A stretch of DNA of 64,000 bases from Coleofasciculaceae cyanobacterium (GTDB lineage: Bacteria; Cyanobacteriota; Cyanobacteriia; Cyanobacteriales; Xenococcaceae). A program made the translations under genes and the position numbers. Below, one piece after another: positions 2 through 8,482 of the stretch (its first letter is position 1; each line of letters starts with the position of its first letter). Location of the stretch: contig DATNPK010000011.1 in the NCBI GenBank assembly GCA_036703275.1, positions 62,001 to 126,000 of the forward strand. The letters are read 5' to 3'. The notes under the pieces were generated by a model that made no database searches, had not been told where the DNA came from, and was given only the letters and a program-made list of their open reading frames with translations.

Positions 2-430
2 CTCAAACAATTTAAAGCAGAAATCAATAAAAAAGGTAAGCCACTAACAGTTTCGGTGATTCGTATTTATCCTCAAGGAATTGCTTTTTATCAACCAGAT
101 TCTTTTTCTGGTTCAATTTTAACCGATGCGGGTTTATCTCGTCCTCCATTACAAAGACAAGGAGGAGGACAACAGCTAATTAGTCAAGAATTAATTAGTG
201 AAGCAGATGCCGATGTAATTTTTTACTGGGCTTATGGCGATGATTATTACAGTAAAGCAGAACGAATAGAGAATAGTTTAGAACAATTTAAATCCGATCC
301 TTTATGGTTACAATTAAATGCAGTTAAACAAGGAAAAGTTTATCAGGTCCCAGACTATTGGATTGGTTATGGCCCTTTAGCTGCTAATGCCGTAATTGAC
401 GATTTATTTAAATATTTACTCAATAACTAA
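2..430 (+). CDS. Iron-siderophore ABC transporter substrate-binding protein, C-terminal part (truncated by window edge)
   Basis: Only the C-terminal ~142 residues are present; the frame is open from base 2, so the start lies outside the window. The visible part fits the C-terminal lobe of FecB/BtuF-type periplasmic binding proteins: a stretch about a 'DVIFYWAYGDD' segment, then 'LNAVKQGKVYQVPDYW' and 'GPLAANAVIDDLFKYL', which is the usual ending of this fold. These proteins capture Fe(III)-siderophores or corrinoids and deliver them to an ABC permease. The MFS gene begins 3 bases after the stop, so the two are probably co-transcribed. A siderophore ligand is inferred from the TonB receptor and AraC regulator downstream; the ligand itself cannot be read from the sequence. 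Confidence 0.8.
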   Translation, partial: LKQFKAEINKKGKPLTVSVIRIYPQGIAFYQPDSFSGSILTDAGLSRPPLQRQGGGQQLISQELISEADADVIFYWAYGDDYYSKAERIENSLEQFKSDPLWLQLNAVKQGKVYQVPDYWIGYGPLAANAVIDDLFKYLLNN

Positions 431-433
431 ATT

Positions 434-1762
434 TTGAACCCACTAAATAATTTACCTGCAAATCTTCGTCCGTTTATTATTCTTTGGATTGGTCAACTAA
501 TTTCTATTTTAGGTTCAGAAATAACTGATTTTGCCATTACAATTTGGGCTTGGGAAATTACAGGCAAAGCCACTCCATTGTCTTTAATTTTGTTATTTGC
601 CAAAATACCGAGTATTATTGCTGCTATTTTTGCTGGTGCAATTGTAGATCGTTATAATCGTAAGTTTTTAATGTTTTTTGGCGATACTGCTTCTTGTATT
701 TCTACCATTTTTTTACTCGTACTTTTATTAACTAATCGTTTAGAAATTTGGCATTTATATGTTACGGCTGCTATCAACGGGTTATTTGGTTACTTTCAAG
801 ATTTAGCTTATTCATCTTCCCTATCTTTACTAGTACCGAAACAACACTATACAAGAGCAACAGTGTTAAATGATTATGTCAGTGGATTTGGGGCAAATAT
901 TCTTGCTCCAGCCTTAGCAGGAGGACTATATTATGTAATCGGGCTGCAAGGCATTATGGCGATCGATTTAATTACTTTTTTCGTCGCAATTTATTCATTA
1001 TCTTTAGTTAAAATACCACAACCAGTTACTAACACTAATTCACCTGAAAATAATAATTTATGGCAAAATTTGACCTTTGGGTTTCGCTACATCATCAAAC
1101 GCAAAAGTCTGCTAATAATGGTAATTTTTCTAATTATTTTCTATTTCATCGATCGCGTTATGTCTGGAATCGAATCGCCAATGATTTTAGCCCGTAGTGG
1201 CAACAATACAGCTATTTTTGCCAGCGTTCATACTGCCACGGCCATTGGAGGTGCGATCGGCGGTATCTTATTAAGTATCTGGGGCGGTTTTCAGCGTCGT
1301 ATTCACGGTTTCTTACTTGGGACAATCTTGACCTTTACCAGTGCGATCGCCTTTGGCTTGAGTAATCTACCTCCTCTGTGGCTAATTACTACCTTCTTTG
1401 CTGCTTTATTTTGGCCCATTATCGGTAGTTCAGAACTTTCGATTTGGCTAGCAAAAGTACCCCCCCAAATCCAAGGCAGAGTATTTGCAGCCCGCTTTTT
1501 AATGACCCAAATTTCTGTCCCGATTGCTTTAGCAATGACAGGATTTTTAGCCGATCGTGTTTTTGAACCAGCGATGATGCCTGGAGGTAGTTTAGCACCT
1601 ATATTAGGTAGTTTATTTGGCACTGGTTTAGGTTCGGGAATGGCAGTGCAATACACTTTATTTGCCATGTTTGGCGTAATTCTAGGTTTAGGCGGATACA
1701 CCTTGACTCAACTGCGAGATATTGAGACGATACTACCTGATGCAGATTTAGAGACTGGGTAA
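434..1762 (+). CDS. MFS transporter, enterobactin-exporter (EntS)-like
   Basis: A 442-residue integral membrane protein with about 12 hydrophobic helices. The N-terminal '[19 protein letters not shown]' segment and the 'DRYNRK' cytoplasmic loop after helix 2 are typical of the MFS_3 (EntS-like) group, proton-driven exporters of siderophores or drugs. The TTG start sits 3 bases after the upstream binding-protein stop, which indicates translational coupling. Placed between a siderophore binding protein and a siderophore regulator/receptor, it may export a siderophore or recycle one; this role is inferred from context. No biosynthetic NRPS gene is visible, so xenosiderophore handling is equally possible. 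Confidence 0.82.
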
Positions 1763-1806
1763 CAAAATAAAGACAAATTTTATGAGTAAATTTTTTAAAT
1801 CTTTCT

Positions 1807-1826
1807 AAATGTTAAATGTTAAATGT
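1807..1826. repeat. Short heptamer repeat (AAATGTT-type) at the start of the acylase gene
   Basis: Nearly three copies of a 7-base AAATGTT unit overlap the proposed ATG of the acylase gene. The unit is the reverse-complement version of the AACATTA/AACATTG heptamers at 3869-4042 and reappears at 4427-4466 and 19335-19373. Confidence 0.6.
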
Positions 1827-3888
1827 AAAGTCAGCTTTTTTTCTAATTAGTTTATTGATCGTTTTGACGATCGGACAAACCAATTTACTGAGTAAGAACA
1901 ATACCGAGATTCTTTGGGATAATTACGGCGTGCCTCATGTTTATGGGATTGATAATCAAAGTACCTTTCAAGCCTTCGGTTGGGCGCAAATGCACAGCCA
2001 CGGCAACTTAATTCTACGTCTTTATGGTCAAGCTAGAGGCAGGGCTGCCGAATATTGGGGAGAAGACTATTTAGAGTCCGATCGATGGGTTGTCACCATG
2101 GGTATTCCCCAACGGGCAACAACTTGGTACAAGCAACAAAATGCTACTTTTCGCAGCTATTTAGATGCCTTTGCTGCTGGAATTAATATTTATGCCCAGG
2201 AACATCCCGAATTAATTGACGATGAAGTGAAAGTAGTCTTACCAGTAACGGGAGAAGATGTTCTCGCCCACGTTCAACGAGTACTTAATTTTACCTTTGT
2301 CGTAGACCCAGAAACCGTTACAAATCTTGGTCAAGAACAGAAGCATTTTAAAGGTTCTAACGGTTGGGCGATCGCGCCTTCTCATTCGGCTAGTGGCAAT
2401 GCCATGCTACTGGCTAACCCTCATTTGCCTTGGTCAGATTTATTTCTCTGGTATGAAGCACAAATTACCGCACCTGGTATGGATGCCTATGGCGCAACTT
2501 TGGTAGGTATTCCCGTTTTGGCGATCGCTTTTAATAATAATCTTGGTTGGACTCATACCGTCAATACTTTCGATGGTTGGGATCTTTATGAATTAACGCG
2601 ATCGGGCAAGGGATATCTATTTGATGGTCAAGTGCGAGATTTTGAACAGAAAACCGCTGAAATTAAAGTCAAACAACAAGATGGCACATTACAATCAGAA
2701 CAACTTGTTATACAAAGCTCTATTCATGGTGCGGTAATCAAGCAAGAACCAGGAAAAGCTCTAGCTTTAAGAGTTGTCGGTTTAGATCGTCCTGGAGTAT
2801 TAGAGCAATGGTGGGATATGGCAAAAGCTAATAACTTTAAGCAGTTTGAAACAGCACTTAAACGTCTACAGCTGCCCATGTTTACTGTCATGTATGCCGA
2901 TCGCGAGGGGCATATTATGCACCTATTTAACGGTCAAGTTCCTATTCGCGATCGAGGAGATTTTGAATATTGGTCAGGTATTATTCCGGGTGATACCTCA
3001 GATACTTTGTGGACTAAAATCCATCCCTATCAAGATTTACCTCGTATTGTCGATCCGACCAGCGGTTGGCTACAAAATGCTAACGATCCTCCCTGGACAA
3101 CTACTTTTCCCAGTGCTATTGCACCTGAAGATTATCCTCCTTACATAGCACCCCAAGAAATGAATTTGCGATCGCAGCGTTCGACTCGTATGTTAGCAGA
3201 AGATGATAAAATTTCTCTGGCAGAAATGATTGCCGATAAACATTCAACTCGCATGGAAATTGCGGATCGTCTCCTCGACGATTTACTCCCTGCATTACGT
3301 CAAGAAGCTAGTCCATTGGCTGTAAAAGTAGCCGATATACTGGAAAAATGGGATCGGCAAACTAATGCCGATAGTCAAGGGGCAGTATTATTCGCTGCTT
3401 GGTTAGAAGAAACTGACTTTGATACCTTGTTCAGTCAACCTTGGCAAAAAAACTCTCCTCTTACTACCCCCGATGGTTTAGCCAATCCTCAGCAAGCAGT
3501 AGCAACACTCTTAGCTGTAGCCACCAAGATCGAACAAGACTATGGCGCAATAGATGTTCCCTGGGGTGAAGTGTTTCGGCTTAACTACGGTAATGTAAAT
3601 TTACCCGCTAATGGTGGCCCAGGGTACTTAGGTATTTTTCGAGTAGTTAATTTTATGCCGATGGAAGACTCCAAACATTTTCAAGCCTTTGATGGAGATT
3701 CTTTCGTCGCTGCCATTGAGTTTTCCCAACCAGTCAAGGCAATGGCACTAACTACCTATGGTAATGCTACTCAACCAAACTCTACTAATTCTGACGAGCA
3801 ATTAAAGTTATTTACTCAAAAACAATTGCGTCCCATCTGGCGATCGCGCCAAGAAGTCGAAGCTCATTCATTGAACATTGAACATTAA
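1816..3888 (+). CDS. Penicillin acylase family protein (Ntn hydrolase, PvdQ/QuiP-like)
   Basis: A 690-residue precursor with an N-terminal hydrophobic signal (residues 5-22). Penicillin amidases (S45) are made as one chain that cleaves itself before a Ser, which then becomes the N-terminal nucleophile of the beta chain. Here 'KGSNGWAIAP' places this Ser at residue 181, so alpha and beta chains are both present and length is normal. The family hydrolyses amide-linked acyl groups: beta-lactams, acyl-homoserine lactones, or, for PvdQ, the fatty-acyl chain of a pyoverdine precursor in the periplasm. Its position in a siderophore locus makes siderophore acyl processing or quorum quenching plausible, but this is inference. 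The start ATG overlaps a heptamer repeat, and the last codons and stop are supplied by the heptamer array that follows. Confidence 0.86.
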   Translation: MLNVKSAFFLISLLIVLTIGQTNLLSKNNTEILWDNYGVPHVYGIDNQSTFQAFGWAQMHSHGNLILRLYGQARGRAAEYWGEDYLESDRWVVTMGIPQRATTWYKQQNATFRSYLDAFAAGINIYAQEHPELIDDEVKVVLPVTGEDVLAHVQRVLNFTFVVDPETVTNLGQEQKHFKGSNGWAIAPSHSASGNAMLLANPHLPWSDLFLWYEAQITAPGMDAYGATLVGIPVLAIAFNNNLGWTHTVNTFDGWDLYELTRSGKGYLFDGQVRDFEQKTAEIKVKQQDGTLQSEQLVIQSSIHGAVIKQEPGKALALRVVGLDRPGVLEQWWDMAKANNFKQFETALKRLQLPMFTVMYADREGHIMHLFNGQVPIRDRGDFEYWSGIIPGDTSDTLWTKIHPYQDLPRIVDPTSGWLQNANDPPWTTTFPSAIAPEDYPPYIAPQEMNLRSQRSTRMLAEDDKISLAEMIADKHSTRMEIADRLLDDLLPALRQEASPLAVKVADILEKWDRQTNADSQGAVLFAAWLEETDFDTLFSQPWQKNSPLTTPDGLANPQQAVATLLAVATKIEQDYGAIDVPWGEVFRLNYGNVNLPANGGPGYLGIFRVVNFMPMEDSKHFQAFDGDSFVAAIEFSQPVKAMALTTYGNATQPNSTNSDEQLKLFTQKQLRPIWRSRQEVEAHSLNIEH

Positions 3889-4042
3889 ACATTGAACATT
3901 GAACATTGAACATTGAACATTGAACATTGAACATTGAACATTGAACATTGAACATTAAACATTGAACATTGAACATTGAACATTGAACATTGAACATTGA
4001 ACATTAAACATTAAACATTGAACATTGAACATTGAACATTAA
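3869..4042. repeat. Heptamer tandem array, about 24 copies of CATTGAA/CATTAAA
   Basis: An uninterrupted 7-bp tandem array with two unit types (CATTGAA most common, CATTAAA at intervals). It contains the last codons and TAA stop of the acylase gene and runs up to the four-helix-bundle gene. Short tandemly repeated heptamers of this kind are well known in cyanobacteria. Copy number is likely to differ between strains. A minus-strand reading of the array gives a spurious low-complexity ORF. Confidence 0.93.
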
Positions 4043-4426: not shown

Positions 4427-4466
4427 TAAATGATAAATGCTAAATGTTAAATGTTAAATGTTAAAT
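4427..4466. repeat. Heptamer tandem repeat (TAAATGN), 5.7 copies
   Basis: Units TAAATGA, TAAATGC, then TAAATGT three times and a partial unit. It is the reverse-complement relative of the array at 3869-4042, lies just after the four-helix gene and overlaps the proposed ATG of the AraC regulator. Confidence 0.85.
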
Positions 4467-5338
4467 TACGACCTGGATTAGAATTAAGTATCGAACATTA
4501 TCAACTGCACGATCGCTGGAACATCCCAAAGTGCGATGAGGCTCTGCCTCCGCTTAGCGATAGCCTTAATCGATTCGAGATGTGTTTTCAAATTAGCAGA
4601 CAAAACTGCGATCGAGACGGTTTTATGGGTGCAGGACAAACTACATTTTGCGCTAGTGGTTTGGCGGTGTCTGGAGAGTGGGAGCAACTCCAGCAACACC
4701 CAGTTATGAGTGTAAGTATGCACATCGAACCCGAATTAGTCGTCGATTTCTGGGGAGAAGACGATCGAGATATTGATGTGAACTGGAACAAATTATTTCA
4801 AACAGAACAACCCTGTTTCGTAGATTCTGGCTCGATTACGCCCCAGATGCAGGTGGCATTACAACAAATCTTAAACTGTCCCTATCGAGGTGCGATCGCA
4901 CGGATGTATTTAGAAAGTAAAGTCTGGGAGCTAATGGCGTTACAATTAGCTCAGATGAAAGACGATAATCGATCAAACCAATATTCTCTGAAATCAGAAG
5001 ATCGCGATCGCCTTTATCTAGCTCAACAAATTTTAGGCGATCGCTTAGATCATCCCCCTTCTTTAACCGACTTAGCTCAAGAAATTGGCTTAAATGAGTG
5101 CAGCCTTAAACGCGGTTTTCGTCAACTATTCGGCACAACGGTATTTGGTTACCTCTATCAACAACGCATGGAATATGCCAGACAGCTTTTACAACAGCGA
5201 GAATTGAATGTTGGTCAGGTAGCCAAAAAAGTAGGTTATGCCAGCCAAAGTCGTTTTGCCACTGCATTTAGAAAAAAATTTGGCATTAATCCTAAAGTAT
5301 TTGCTCGGCGATCGCTAGGTAATTTAACTATCTATTAG
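4451..5338 (+). CDS. AraC family transcriptional regulator (PchR-like)
   Basis: 295 residues: a ligand-sensing N-terminal region and a C-terminal AraC-type double helix-turn-helix (about residues 190-288), with the first HTH in 'LTDLAQEIGLNECSLKRGF' and the second in 'VGQVAKKVGYASQSRFATAF'. The N-terminal half resembles PchR-type regulators, which bind ferric siderophores and activate the cognate receptor gene. It converges on the DUF1636/TonB-receptor genes with a gap of only 3 bases. A 15-bp direct repeat in the receptor promoter is a natural candidate operator. The start at 4451 lies within a heptamer repeat with no clear ribosome binding site, so the true start may be a few codons away. 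Confidence 0.85.
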   Translation: MLNVKLRPGLELSIEHYQLHDRWNIPKCDEALPPLSDSLNRFEMCFQISRQNCDRDGFMGAGQTTFCASGLAVSGEWEQLQQHPVMSVSMHIEPELVVDFWGEDDRDIDVNWNKLFQTEQPCFVDSGSITPQMQVALQQILNCPYRGAIARMYLESKVWELMALQLAQMKDDNRSNQYSLKSEDRDRLYLAQQILGDRLDHPPSLTDLAQEIGLNECSLKRGFRQLFGTTVFGYLYQQRMEYARQLLQQRELNVGQVAKKVGYASQSRFATAFRKKFGINPKVFARRSLGNLTIY

Positions 5339-5341
5339 CTA

Positions 5342-5704
5342 TTAAGATGGCTTAATTGGGGGAATACGGGCGATATTTGCTGATTTAAGTACTTGAGGAA
5401 ATTTTTTATAAGGAATAGATTCACCTTGGCGATCGAGATAAAAATTTGCAACCTCAAGCAAAGCTTCAGGACTTTCTCGAACGGGTAAGTCAGTAAATAA
5501 ATAGGTAAATCGATCGCTTGCAGAAAGTGCAACGACACAGGCTTGTTCGCACATCCACAGGCATCCTACGGCTTGAATAACAAATTTATCTTCATCATTC
5601 AGTTCGTTTAGTCTATCTAACAGGCAAGCACCTTCAGATAGTTCTGAATCCTGGTTAGAAGTAGTATTACAAGATTTACAGACGAACAAGACGGGTTTTG
5701 ACAT
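5342..5704 (-). CDS. DUF1636 family protein (putative metal/Fe-S binding, thioredoxin-like)
   Basis: 120 residues. 'LFVCKSCNTT' near the N terminus, then 'AVGCLWMCEQACVVAL' around residue 50: this spaced cysteine set is typical of DUF1636, whose pattern resembles thioredoxin-like [2Fe-2S] proteins. Function is unknown; genes of this family commonly accompany metal- or corrinoid-uptake genes. It starts 58 bp after the TonB receptor stop on the same strand and is likely co-transcribed with it, suggesting a role in handling imported iron or metal chelate. Confidence 0.8.
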   Translation of the reverse strand: MSKPVLFVCKSCNTTSNQDSELSEGACLLDRLNELNDEDKFVIQAVGCLWMCEQACVVALSASDRFTYLFTDLPVRESPEALLEVANFYLDRQGESIPYKKFPQVLKSANIARIPPIKPS

Positions 5705-5762: not shown

Positions 5763-8369
5763 TCAAAATTCCACTGAAACCGAACCAATTACCGTAAAAG
5801 GATCGCCTGGTCTAACTGCTTCTCTAAAGGTTTCACTCGACCTAATATAGTCAACGTCGAAGAGGTTTTGAAAGTTAAGATTAGCTTGCCAATTGTCTTG
5901 ACGATAGAAAAGAGCAGCATCGGTACGGACATAACTAGGTAGAGTAAAAGTATTATCTAAATCTCCTTGGCGATCGCCAACAAAAAAGACCCCTGCACCT
6001 ACACCTAAACCCTGTAAGCTTCCCTGCTGAATTTGATAACTCGTCCAGAGACTCGCGCTATTTTCGGGGACGTTTGCTAATTTATTTCCCACAGGAAATT
6101 CATTATCTTCGGTAATCTCGGCATCGGTATAAGCATAAGCAGCAATAACATTCCAACCAGGTAAGATTTCTCCTGCAACATCTAATTCAATTCCGCGACT
6201 GCGAACTTCTCCCGCAGCAATACTAAAATCTGTGTTATCGGGATCGATAGTAGCAAAATTATTGCGCTCGATTTGATAGAAAGCCAAGGTACTAGTAAGT
6301 TTTTGATTCAGAAATTCTCCTTTAACTCCAAGTTCGTATTGATTACCAGTAGAAGGTTCGAGGACATCACCAGCAACGGTAGTGGAATTAAACGGATCGG
6401 GATTAAAGGAAGTGCTGTAGCTGGCATAAAGAGAAATAGGCGCGATCGGTTGATAAACTATACCAAGGCGAGGACTAAATTTTTCTTGAGACTGTTCGGA
6501 AGTTAGATTTTCGGTAAAATCAATTGATTCTTGATCGTAAATATCTAAACGTCCGCCAGCCAAAAACTTGAATTGTTCTGAAAGAGAGATTTGGTCTTGT
6601 AAATAAATACCAATTAAATCCGCACGAATATTCTCGTCTCGCACAAATGAAGTTAAATCTTCAGGTTCGATATTCGGAACGGGATCTGCTTCTTGGGTAA
6701 AGACATCAATTAAAAATATGGGGTCGTCTGGTAGTCTTCCCTGTCTTCCCACACTAGTGGTGCGGTCTAAATCCACACCGACTAAAAGCTGATGTTCGAC
6801 TTTTCCTGTCGCAAATTCTCCAACTACATTGGTTTGTAAGCTATAGTTTTCTCGAATATCTTCATTACGGCGAAATCCCCTTTCTAAAATCCCCGAATCG
6901 TCAATCAATACAGAATCAAGACGAAAATCAGATGTATCTCCAGAAACCAAGCGAAAACTATTACGAAGTTTCCATTTATCGCTAAAACGATGTTCTAATT
7001 GATAACTAGCACTCAACTGTTCTAATTCATATTCATCATCGGGCTGTTGGAAAATGCGATCGAAGGGAATATCGGCAACACCATCATCAATAGCTACAAT
7101 ACCGCGATCGAAGGGGTTAGCTTGGTTAATATAGCTGAAATCTATGAGTAAATCAGTGTTCTTGCCGATTTGCCAGCTAATAGTTGGTGCAAGAGATAAA
7201 CGAGTTGCATCTTGGTCAAAATCACGGAAACCATTATTGACTTCAAAAGCAGCATTCAGACGATAGAGTAAGTTTTGCTCGGAATCGATCGCATCGGAGA
7301 AATCAAAACTAGATTGAAATAAACCAAAGTTACCCAATTCTATTTTCGTTTCGGCAAAAGGTTCTGATAAAGGCTTTTTCGTCACTAAATTAATTACGCC
7401 ACCAGGTTCGAGATTACCATATAAAATTGAGGCAGGCCCTTTTAAGACTTCAATCCGCTCTAATCTTTCTGCACTAGGCAATCCTTGTCCAAAAGCAGTC
7501 TGGCGAAATCCATTAATCAAAGTGGTGTCTTGAGCAAAACCGCGAATGACAAATCTTTCTGCCGTACCACCAAAACTATCCCCCGTACTAACTCCACTGA
7601 CATTCCGTAGTGCATCTTCTAGTCGGTTGGCTTGTTGATCTTCAATCACTTGTTGCGGTACAACTTGAATTGACTGGGGTATATCTTTTAAAGGTGTATC
7701 GGTGCGAGTGGCTGTAGTAGCTTCGGGAACAGTATAATCGTCATCTTCTTCCTCTCCTTCTCCCGTAGCAATGACTTCTATCTCTTCATCGGGTGTTTGT
7801 TGTGCTGTAGCTTCTGGTGTAATATTTAAAACTAAATTTTGCGATGATGGTACTACTTCCGCGCTTGGTGCCTGGTTTTCTCCTGTAATGGTTAAACGAA
7901 CATTACTTTCATCTATCTGAGTAACTGTAATTTCTCTAATTCCTGGTGCGGGATTGCTTTGTTTGAATTCATCCCCTGCTGGTAAAGCCAGAGTTGCATC
8001 TAAAAGATCGATGACTAAATTATTCCCTTCAGGCAAAATTAACGGAACTAATTTTTGTTCTCCTGCTGCGGTTTGTAAAATTAACTCCAACTCTGACTCA
8101 GTTTGATTAATCTGTACCCCCGTAACTCTAGTAATGCCTTGCGCAATTAAATTAGAAATTGGCTTGATAGAATGGCGATCGCTTTTTTTTGTCTCCCAGT
8201 CTCCCTCCTTTGCCTGAATCAAATCTCTTTTTTGCAAATTATTATGATTAATTTTTTCTTGGTTTTTAGCTGCTACGGCTCGCTCAGACAGCGCACATAT
8301 CATAGTCAGAACACTTAAAAAAAACAATAAACTATTATTCCAAAACTTAAATTGATGATGTAATTTCAC
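5763..8369 (-). CDS. TonB-dependent siderophore receptor with N-terminal AMIN domain
   Basis: An 868-residue outer-membrane receptor. Domains: signal peptide (about 1-34), AMIN domain (about 78-185, containing 'VTGVQINQTESELELIL'), acidic linker with the TonB-box region (about 195-225), plug (about 225-335, 'LKDIPQSIQVVPQQVI', 'FVIRGFAQDTTLINGFR', 'IEVLKGPASILYGNLEPGG'), then a 22-strand barrel ending in 'VEF' with the C-terminal Phe needed for barrel assembly. An added AMIN domain is characteristic of cyanobacterial siderophore receptors. It imports a ferric siderophore using TonB/ExbBD energy. The start is GTG at 8369. Upstream lie a Fur-like box and tandem 15-bp repeats, so dual control by iron and by the neighbouring AraC regulator is likely. 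Confidence 0.95.
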   Translation of the reverse strand: MKLHHQFKFWNNSLLFFLSVLTMICALSERAVAAKNQEKINHNNLQKRDLIQAKEGDWETKKSDRHSIKPISNLIAQGITRVTGVQINQTESELELILQTAAGEQKLVPLILPEGNNLVIDLLDATLALPAGDEFKQSNPAPGIREITVTQIDESNVRLTITGENQAPSAEVVPSSQNLVLNITPEATAQQTPDEEIEVIATGEGEEEDDDYTVPEATTATRTDTPLKDIPQSIQVVPQQVIEDQQANRLEDALRNVSGVSTGDSFGGTAERFVIRGFAQDTTLINGFRQTAFGQGLPSAERLERIEVLKGPASILYGNLEPGGVINLVTKKPLSEPFAETKIELGNFGLFQSSFDFSDAIDSEQNLLYRLNAAFEVNNGFRDFDQDATRLSLAPTISWQIGKNTDLLIDFSYINQANPFDRGIVAIDDGVADIPFDRIFQQPDDEYELEQLSASYQLEHRFSDKWKLRNSFRLVSGDTSDFRLDSVLIDDSGILERGFRRNEDIRENYSLQTNVVGEFATGKVEHQLLVGVDLDRTTSVGRQGRLPDDPIFLIDVFTQEADPVPNIEPEDLTSFVRDENIRADLIGIYLQDQISLSEQFKFLAGGRLDIYDQESIDFTENLTSEQSQEKFSPRLGIVYQPIAPISLYASYSTSFNPDPFNSTTVAGDVLEPSTGNQYELGVKGEFLNQKLTSTLAFYQIERNNFATIDPDNTDFSIAAGEVRSRGIELDVAGEILPGWNVIAAYAYTDAEITEDNEFPVGNKLANVPENSASLWTSYQIQQGSLQGLGVGAGVFFVGDRQGDLDNTFTLPSYVRTDAALFYRQDNWQANLNFQNLFDVDYIRSSETFREAVRPGDPFTVIGSVSVEF

Positions 8370-8388
8370 TCTTGCCCCTGAATACTAA

Positions 8389-8403
8389 TAAAAATGATTC
8401 TCA
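8389..8403 (-). promoter_or_regulatory. Fur-box-like site upstream of the TonB receptor
   Basis: Read on the minus strand, TGAGAATCATTTTTA matches the 7-1-7 Fur consensus TGATAATnATTATCA at 11 of 14 informative positions. It lies 20-34 bp upstream of the receptor GTG, where a bound repressor would block transcription. The assignment is by consensus only. Confidence 0.6.
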
Positions 8404-8446
8404 AGTAATTCAGAATACATCAATTGCTAGCAGTTTTTACGCAGAG

Positions 8447-8482
8447 TTTGCGCCTCAAAAGTAATATTTTGCGCCTCAAAAG
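8447..8482 (-). promoter_or_regulatory. Candidate AraC/PchR operator: 15-bp direct repeat with 21-bp period
   Basis: The word CTTTTGAGGCGCAAA (minus strand) occurs twice, at 8447-8461 and 8468-8482, without mismatch. The 21-bp period equals two helical turns, which suits the two half-sites of an AraC-family dimer. It lies about 80-115 bp upstream of the receptor start, further out than the Fur-like box, as expected for an activator. An adjacent dyad CTTTCA-N8-TGAAAG (8490-8509) may belong to the same control region. Confidence 0.6.

Follow-up and report, generated by a model that had tools for sequence, protein, structure and literature searches.

The window (the whole stretch of 64 kb that was analysed) harbors the gene of a TonB-dependent siderophore receptor with an AMIN domain and a GTG start codon, assigned by Pfam and by TIGR01783 above the cutoff; it is the regulated gene of the present work. 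It is followed on its 3' side by a DUF1636 gene (Pfam PF07845), probably in the same transcript, and DUF1636 follows a receptor also on pAQ7 of PCC 7002. The convergent neighbor is the gene of an AraC-family regulator of the IutR/PchR type, proposed here as the binder of the receptor promoter. The regulator possesses a C-terminal AraC double helix-turn-helix (Pfam HTH_18, 1.5e-21) with the helices LNECSLKRG (HTH1) and ASQSRFAT (HTH2), and its relatives likewise stand beside TonB-dependent receptors, directly upstream of them in genome G002 and on pAQ7 of PCC 7002. The named relatives come from Pleurocapsa, Hyella and other cyanobacteria. The elements of the locus are as follows:

4451..5338, plus strand: AraC-family regulator, IutR/PchR type, proposed binder (HTH_18; relatives beside receptors; covariation)
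5342..5704, minus strand: DUF1636 gene
5763..8369, minus strand: TonB-dependent siderophore receptor, AMIN domain, GTG start
8386..8404, minus strand: FurA-like box TTGAGAATCATTTTTATTA
8412..8417, minus strand: putative -10 hexamer TATTCT
8435..8440, minus strand: putative poor -35 hexamer GTAAAA, 6 bp 3' of the proximal copy
8447..8461, minus strand: proximal operator copy CTTTTGAGGCGCAAA, 21 bp 3' of the distal one
8468..8482, minus strand: distal operator copy CTTTTGAGGCGCAAA

To the left of the AraC gene lie genes of a PvdQ-like acylase, an EntS-like MFS protein, an iron-siderophore binding protein, a cupin-like protein, an aminotransferase and two NRPS proteins, the second of which ends in a thioester reductase domain. 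The NRPS cluster is located in L260 (G000:C11:50000-66000) and at window positions 56-3888. This gene group is probably a cluster for siderophore biosynthesis that includes its own receptor gene. Between the end of the acylase gene and the gene of a 23S-IVP-type protein, at about 3869-4015, there is a microsatellite of approximately 150 bp with a 7-bp unit, (TTGAACA)n.

Upstream of the receptor gene, on the minus strand, the word CTTTTGAGGCGCAAA occurs twice in identical form with a start-to-start period of 21 bp. An AraC-type tandem operator consists of two direct half-sites spaced by about 21 bp, as is the case here. The order on the minus strand is CTTTTGAGGCGCAAA, atatta, CTTTTGAGGCGCAAA, 29 nt, TATTCT, 7 nt and TTGAGAATCATTTTTATTA, followed by the GTG at 8369. 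The sequence-only reading of this DNA had described a 15-bp word exactly repeated with a 21-bp period, a spacing that it called unlikely by chance, and a Fur-like dyad nearer the start codon. Both elements are confirmed. The copies occupy 8447-8461 and 8468-8482; 20 shuffles of the 64-kb window gave zero exact repeats of at least 15 bp at periods of 10–60 bp, and the window itself contains only this pair and the microsatellite. The dyad, at 8404-8386, matches 14 of the 19 positions of the Anabaena FurA consensus (PMC4005646) and its arms pair at 5/7.

The tandem is single in the 5.6-Mb genome, as judged by a search that allowed 3 mismatches and degenerate bases; a tandem-like pair with a period of 19 is present at C75:3466-3498. 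Matches to one copy of the word with at most 2 mismatches number 113 in the genome vs 46 for the reversed pattern, and these one-copy matches are mostly chance. No clear tandem was found at the other two large receptor homologues of the genome (L069 on C74 and L070 on C82). The latter (G000:C82:65804-69806) is adjoined only by an AraC HTH fragment, an open frame of 88 aa with a stop inside the match, which is perhaps a decayed regulator.

The -35 and -10 hexamers and the transcription start were placed by eye from the sequence, which places the end of the 15-mer 29 nt from the presumed -10 and about 6 bp from the presumed -35. The -35 assignment is weak. Its inner TAA is kept in the four-way promoter alignment of the window, G002, G010 and G009; GTAT and the final T of the -10 region are the same in the four orthologous or paralogous promoters. 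About 15 positions of the 64 kb (both strands) score as high as TTGAGAATCATTTTTATTA against the FurA consensus, and therefore the score is weak on its own and not significant in this AT-rich window. The core of the box, TTGAGAAT, has the same letters in all four aligned promoters, so that a consensus match near the start is joined by an invariant core and by a position found family-wide (see below). TTGAGAAT fits the FurA consensus of Anabaena sp. PCC 7120 on the complementary strand, and TBDT genes are among the targets of the FurA regulon there; unlike the present case, AraC operators are unmentioned in that work, with 0 occurrences of AraC (PMC4005646).

In the four-way alignment the flanks diverge between promoters and, except in G009, both repeat copies stay. 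The word GGCGCAAA is present in both copies in the window, G002 and G010, each with the same -10/Fur layout, so the pair that might have been expected to vanish from orthologous promoters, had the sequence-only reading been wrong, is kept. The receptor is 83% and the regulator 75% identical in G002; in G010 the receptor is more distant (about 44%) and the regulator is 46% identical. The AraC regulators of both genomes share the second recognition helix, SQSRF, with that of the window. Unlike in G002, receptor and regulator have opposite orientations in the window, and the operator has remained at the receptor promoter. G009, a member of the same genus, has a receptor orthologue of 75–79% identity, the promoter of which lacks the repeat segment, both copies included, and retains the -10 region and TTGAGAAT. 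An IutR-type regulator is absent from G009, whose best AraC matches are only 28–35% identical (E of 4e-10 at best). In G006 the receptor is 82% identical, but a different regulator (about 40%) is accompanied by a different tandem word, TTCCGTTTAGTACA. This word is common to G006 and G019, whose regulators have near-identical helices (SCSYLSK against SCSYLSR). In G006, regulator and operator have thus changed together at an orthologous receptor.

The tandem arrangement is not restricted to these relatives. The survey comprised 139 distinct AraC regulator genes, taken from relatives and from named genomes of cyanobacteria, and each was scanned for repeats (at least 12/15 identical, lags 14–31) in the interval between 70 nt upstream and 263 nt downstream of the regulator stop codon. 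A 21- or 22-bp tandem was found at the 3' end of 81 genes: lag 21 occurs in 56 genes and lag 22 in 31, and each other lag gives 0–8. With the 300 nt downstream only, lag 21 is seen in 28 genes (shuffle mean 0.35, maximum 3); this count is too low because in 47 of the 81 cases the repeat begins inside the end of the regulator gene. Upstream of regulator genes, where autoregulation would place it, there is no enrichment of repeats (2/122). In the remaining 58 of the 139 genes the 3' end lacks a clear repeat; degenerate or distant sites may account for many of them. The consensus unit of the tandem is AAAATTCCGTCTAGnGnTCAA, and the period stays at 21/22 across unrelated words. In 41 of 68 promoters, a Fur core close to TTGAGAA lies 32–46 nt 3' of the proximal unit, vs 2.9% in shuffles. 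The operator/Fur layout is present in two of the three regulator-receptor gaps of PCC 7002 pAQ7 and, in a more degenerate form, in Synechocystis PCC 7338 and PCC 6714. The pAQ7 locus (L258) is one cluster of three AraC-receptor pairs, in which the annotation breaks the third receptor into several pieces.

The overlap with the regulator gene has a visible consequence in the protein. In L110, L111, L185, L187, L189 and others the distal operator copy lies inside the last codons, Lys-Asn-Ser-Ala-stop being encoded by AAAAATTCCGCCTAG, and thus the TAG of the motif is the stop codon. Nineteen regulators terminate in Asn-Ser-Ala, because AAAAATTCCGCCTAG serves both as the gene end and as the beginning of the distal operator copy.

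A testable motif for other cyanobacterial siderophore receptors had been expected from the repeat. It exists as the 21/22-bp tandem of AAAATTCCGTCTAGnGnTCAA, which is general; the exact 15-mer does not generalise. When GGCGCAAA pairs were searched at the window spacing across 391 genomes of the order, most of them proved to be CGCAAAGG-type repeats or isolated matches without a TCC core, and IutR-type sites with GGCGCAAA were limited to the own genome, G002 and G010. The exact word CTTTTGAGGCGCAAA was thus rejected as a general motif. Some genomes of the order (L208, L213 and others, in G026 and G121) contain many interspersed CGCAAAGG-type tandem repeats (GGCGCAAAGG...CGCAAAGGGCGCAAA).

The operator words go with the recognition helices of the regulators. 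The covariation set comprised 77 regulator-operator pairs chosen by repeat and matrix score, apart from those of the window, L075 and L040, which were retained regardless; the operators of the window and of L075 were taken from the receptor promoter in place of the region downstream of the regulator. Covariation links the first helix-turn-helix to the left half of the unit (r=0.54, partial 0.50, p=0.0003) and the second to the right half (r=0.72, partial 0.71, p=0.0003), where p comes from Mantel permutations and shared ancestry is not wholly removed. The cross terms are small (partial 0.15 for helix 1 with the right half, about 0 for helix 2 with the left half), as is the partial correlation of the N-terminal domain with the operator (0.07–0.13). 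The frame of the unit was set by a matrix derived from these very pairs, a procedure biased towards a common left core, but such framing does not create covariation with protein residues. Among regulators less than 50% identical overall, right-half identity is 0.68 for the same helix 2 vs 0.33 for different ones, and left-half identity is 0.81 for the same helix 1 vs 0.62.

The correspondence can be followed down to individual letters. The base before TCC goes with two adjacent residues of helix 1: T with Cys-Thr (82/82), G with Arg-Lys (10/10) and A with Tyr-Lys (10/10) and Phe-Lys (6/6), i.e. 16/16 for Tyr/Phe-Lys. In a PDB alignment this residue pair coincides with Trp-Tyr of the SoxS recognition helix, and in MarA-like proteins this helix position contacts bases. 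For helix 2 and the right half, SQSRF goes with GGCGCAA, SRSYF with GCGTTCAA and SPTxF with GAAGAGAA. Tandems of GGCGCA accompany 5 of 9 SQSR regulators and none of 130 others. As to the other SQSR regulators, L115 has GGGCGCAAA in the distal copy only, L112 has GGGCAAA, and L124 and L167 have no tandem nearby. GGCGCAA is specific to regulators with the SQSRF helix, and therefore other cyanobacterial receptor promoters have other words. It is likely, as far as sequence comparison goes, that IutR regulators of cyanobacteria follow a readable amino-acid-to-base code, in which the helix 1 pair would set the base before TCC and helix 2 the right half.

The anatomy of the repeat, its conservation, its loss and its covariation point to a PchR/IutR-type operator combined with a FurA box. 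The two-copy site almost certainly belongs to the activator encoded by the adjacent gene. The identification of the AraC protein 4451-5338 as the reader of the repeat, suggested earlier from the sequence, gains from the absence of both in G009, from the joint change in G006 and from the 77-pair covariation. The whole scheme, in which the tandem would be the operator of this IutR/PchR-type activator and activation would be combined with FurA repression, is in our opinion very probable.

The genome holds other AraC-type genes, and one Synechocystis IutR can bind several promoters (PMC11221513), so that a second AraC protein or a paralogue from elsewhere might bind the repeat instead of the adjacent one. 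This is improbable: the other AraC matches in the genome are distant (23–30%) or, at C82, an HTH-only fragment, GGCGCAA tandems accompany SQSRF regulators only, and the site is single. Short repeats abound in cyanobacterial genomes, there is a microsatellite at a distance of 4.4 kb, and the CGCAAAGG-type repeats of other genomes share part of the word; still, a tandem duplication or repeat element that is neutral and plays no part in regulation is even less probable, given that both copies are conserved between diverged flanks, that the 21/22 period is fixed across unrelated words as is the distance to the Fur core, and that the words track the regulator helices. FurA sites of Anabaena can be multiple and AT-rich (PMC4005646), and the repeat might accordingly belong to a longer FurA site or be a second Fur box. 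This is the least credible alternative: the G+C-rich GGCGCAA core does not resemble the FurA consensus, and a separate Fur box is conserved here and is kept by G009 without the repeat.

The operator of the adjacent activator, together with the FurA box, would most probably work as follows; the steps are modelled on AraC/PchR biology and on the Synechocystis IutR work (PMC11221513). Two regulator subunits would bind head-to-tail on the same face of DNA, one per 21-bp unit, with the left half, around TCC, read by the first HTH and the right half, GGCGCAA, on the side nearer to RNA polymerase, by the second (SQSRF). The bound activator would recruit the polymerase to the poor -35 and the TATTCT -10, and would be active probably when holding its ferric siderophore as a co-inducer. 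FurA with iron would repress via the box at 8404-8386, which overlaps the likely start region. Synthesis of the receptor and of DUF1636 would consequently require both low iron and an active activator.

On araI1-I2, E. coli AraC occupies direct half-sites that are arranged head-to-tail, recur every 21 bp and adjoin the -35, with two HTHs per unit. The window shares with it the tandem direct half-sites and their period, but the arabinose system has no Fur box, and the window gives no indication of looping to a distant operator. PchR of Pseudomonas aeruginosa is likewise an AraC-type regulator at a siderophore receptor promoter under Fur control; PchR and its PchR-box, with pyochelin as the effector, were reportedly described by Michel et al. 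in 2005 (cited in PMC10393863). Another close system is that of Synechocystis sp. PCC 6803, where genes of PchR-type AraC activators stand beside TonB-dependent receptor genes; EMSA and yeast one-hybrid assays showed binding of three IutR proteins to TBDT promoters there, and induction under iron deficiency depends on these proteins (PMC11221513, 2024). The kind of operator is therefore already known, direct binding of receptor promoters by IutR having been shown there. In contrast to the window, with its 21-bp tandem once per genome beside an NRPS siderophore-type cluster and its convergent regulator and receptor, IutR was reported to act globally, with three short HOMER motifs and no use of the word "repeat" in the main text; joint control with FurA was proposed and left open by that study (PMC11221513). 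In open papers, neither the tandem operator nor the helix-base correspondence was found described for cyanobacteria; subscription journals may differ.

Cyanobacteria often carry many pairs of AraC regulators and TonB receptors. If the proposed code is true, the target receptor of each regulator would be predictable from its protein sequence. Because the tandem operator and its distance to the Fur box are fixed and the helices correspond to bases, regulons become predictable from sequence, and the way is open to direct mutational tests, including in the tractable strain PCC 7002.
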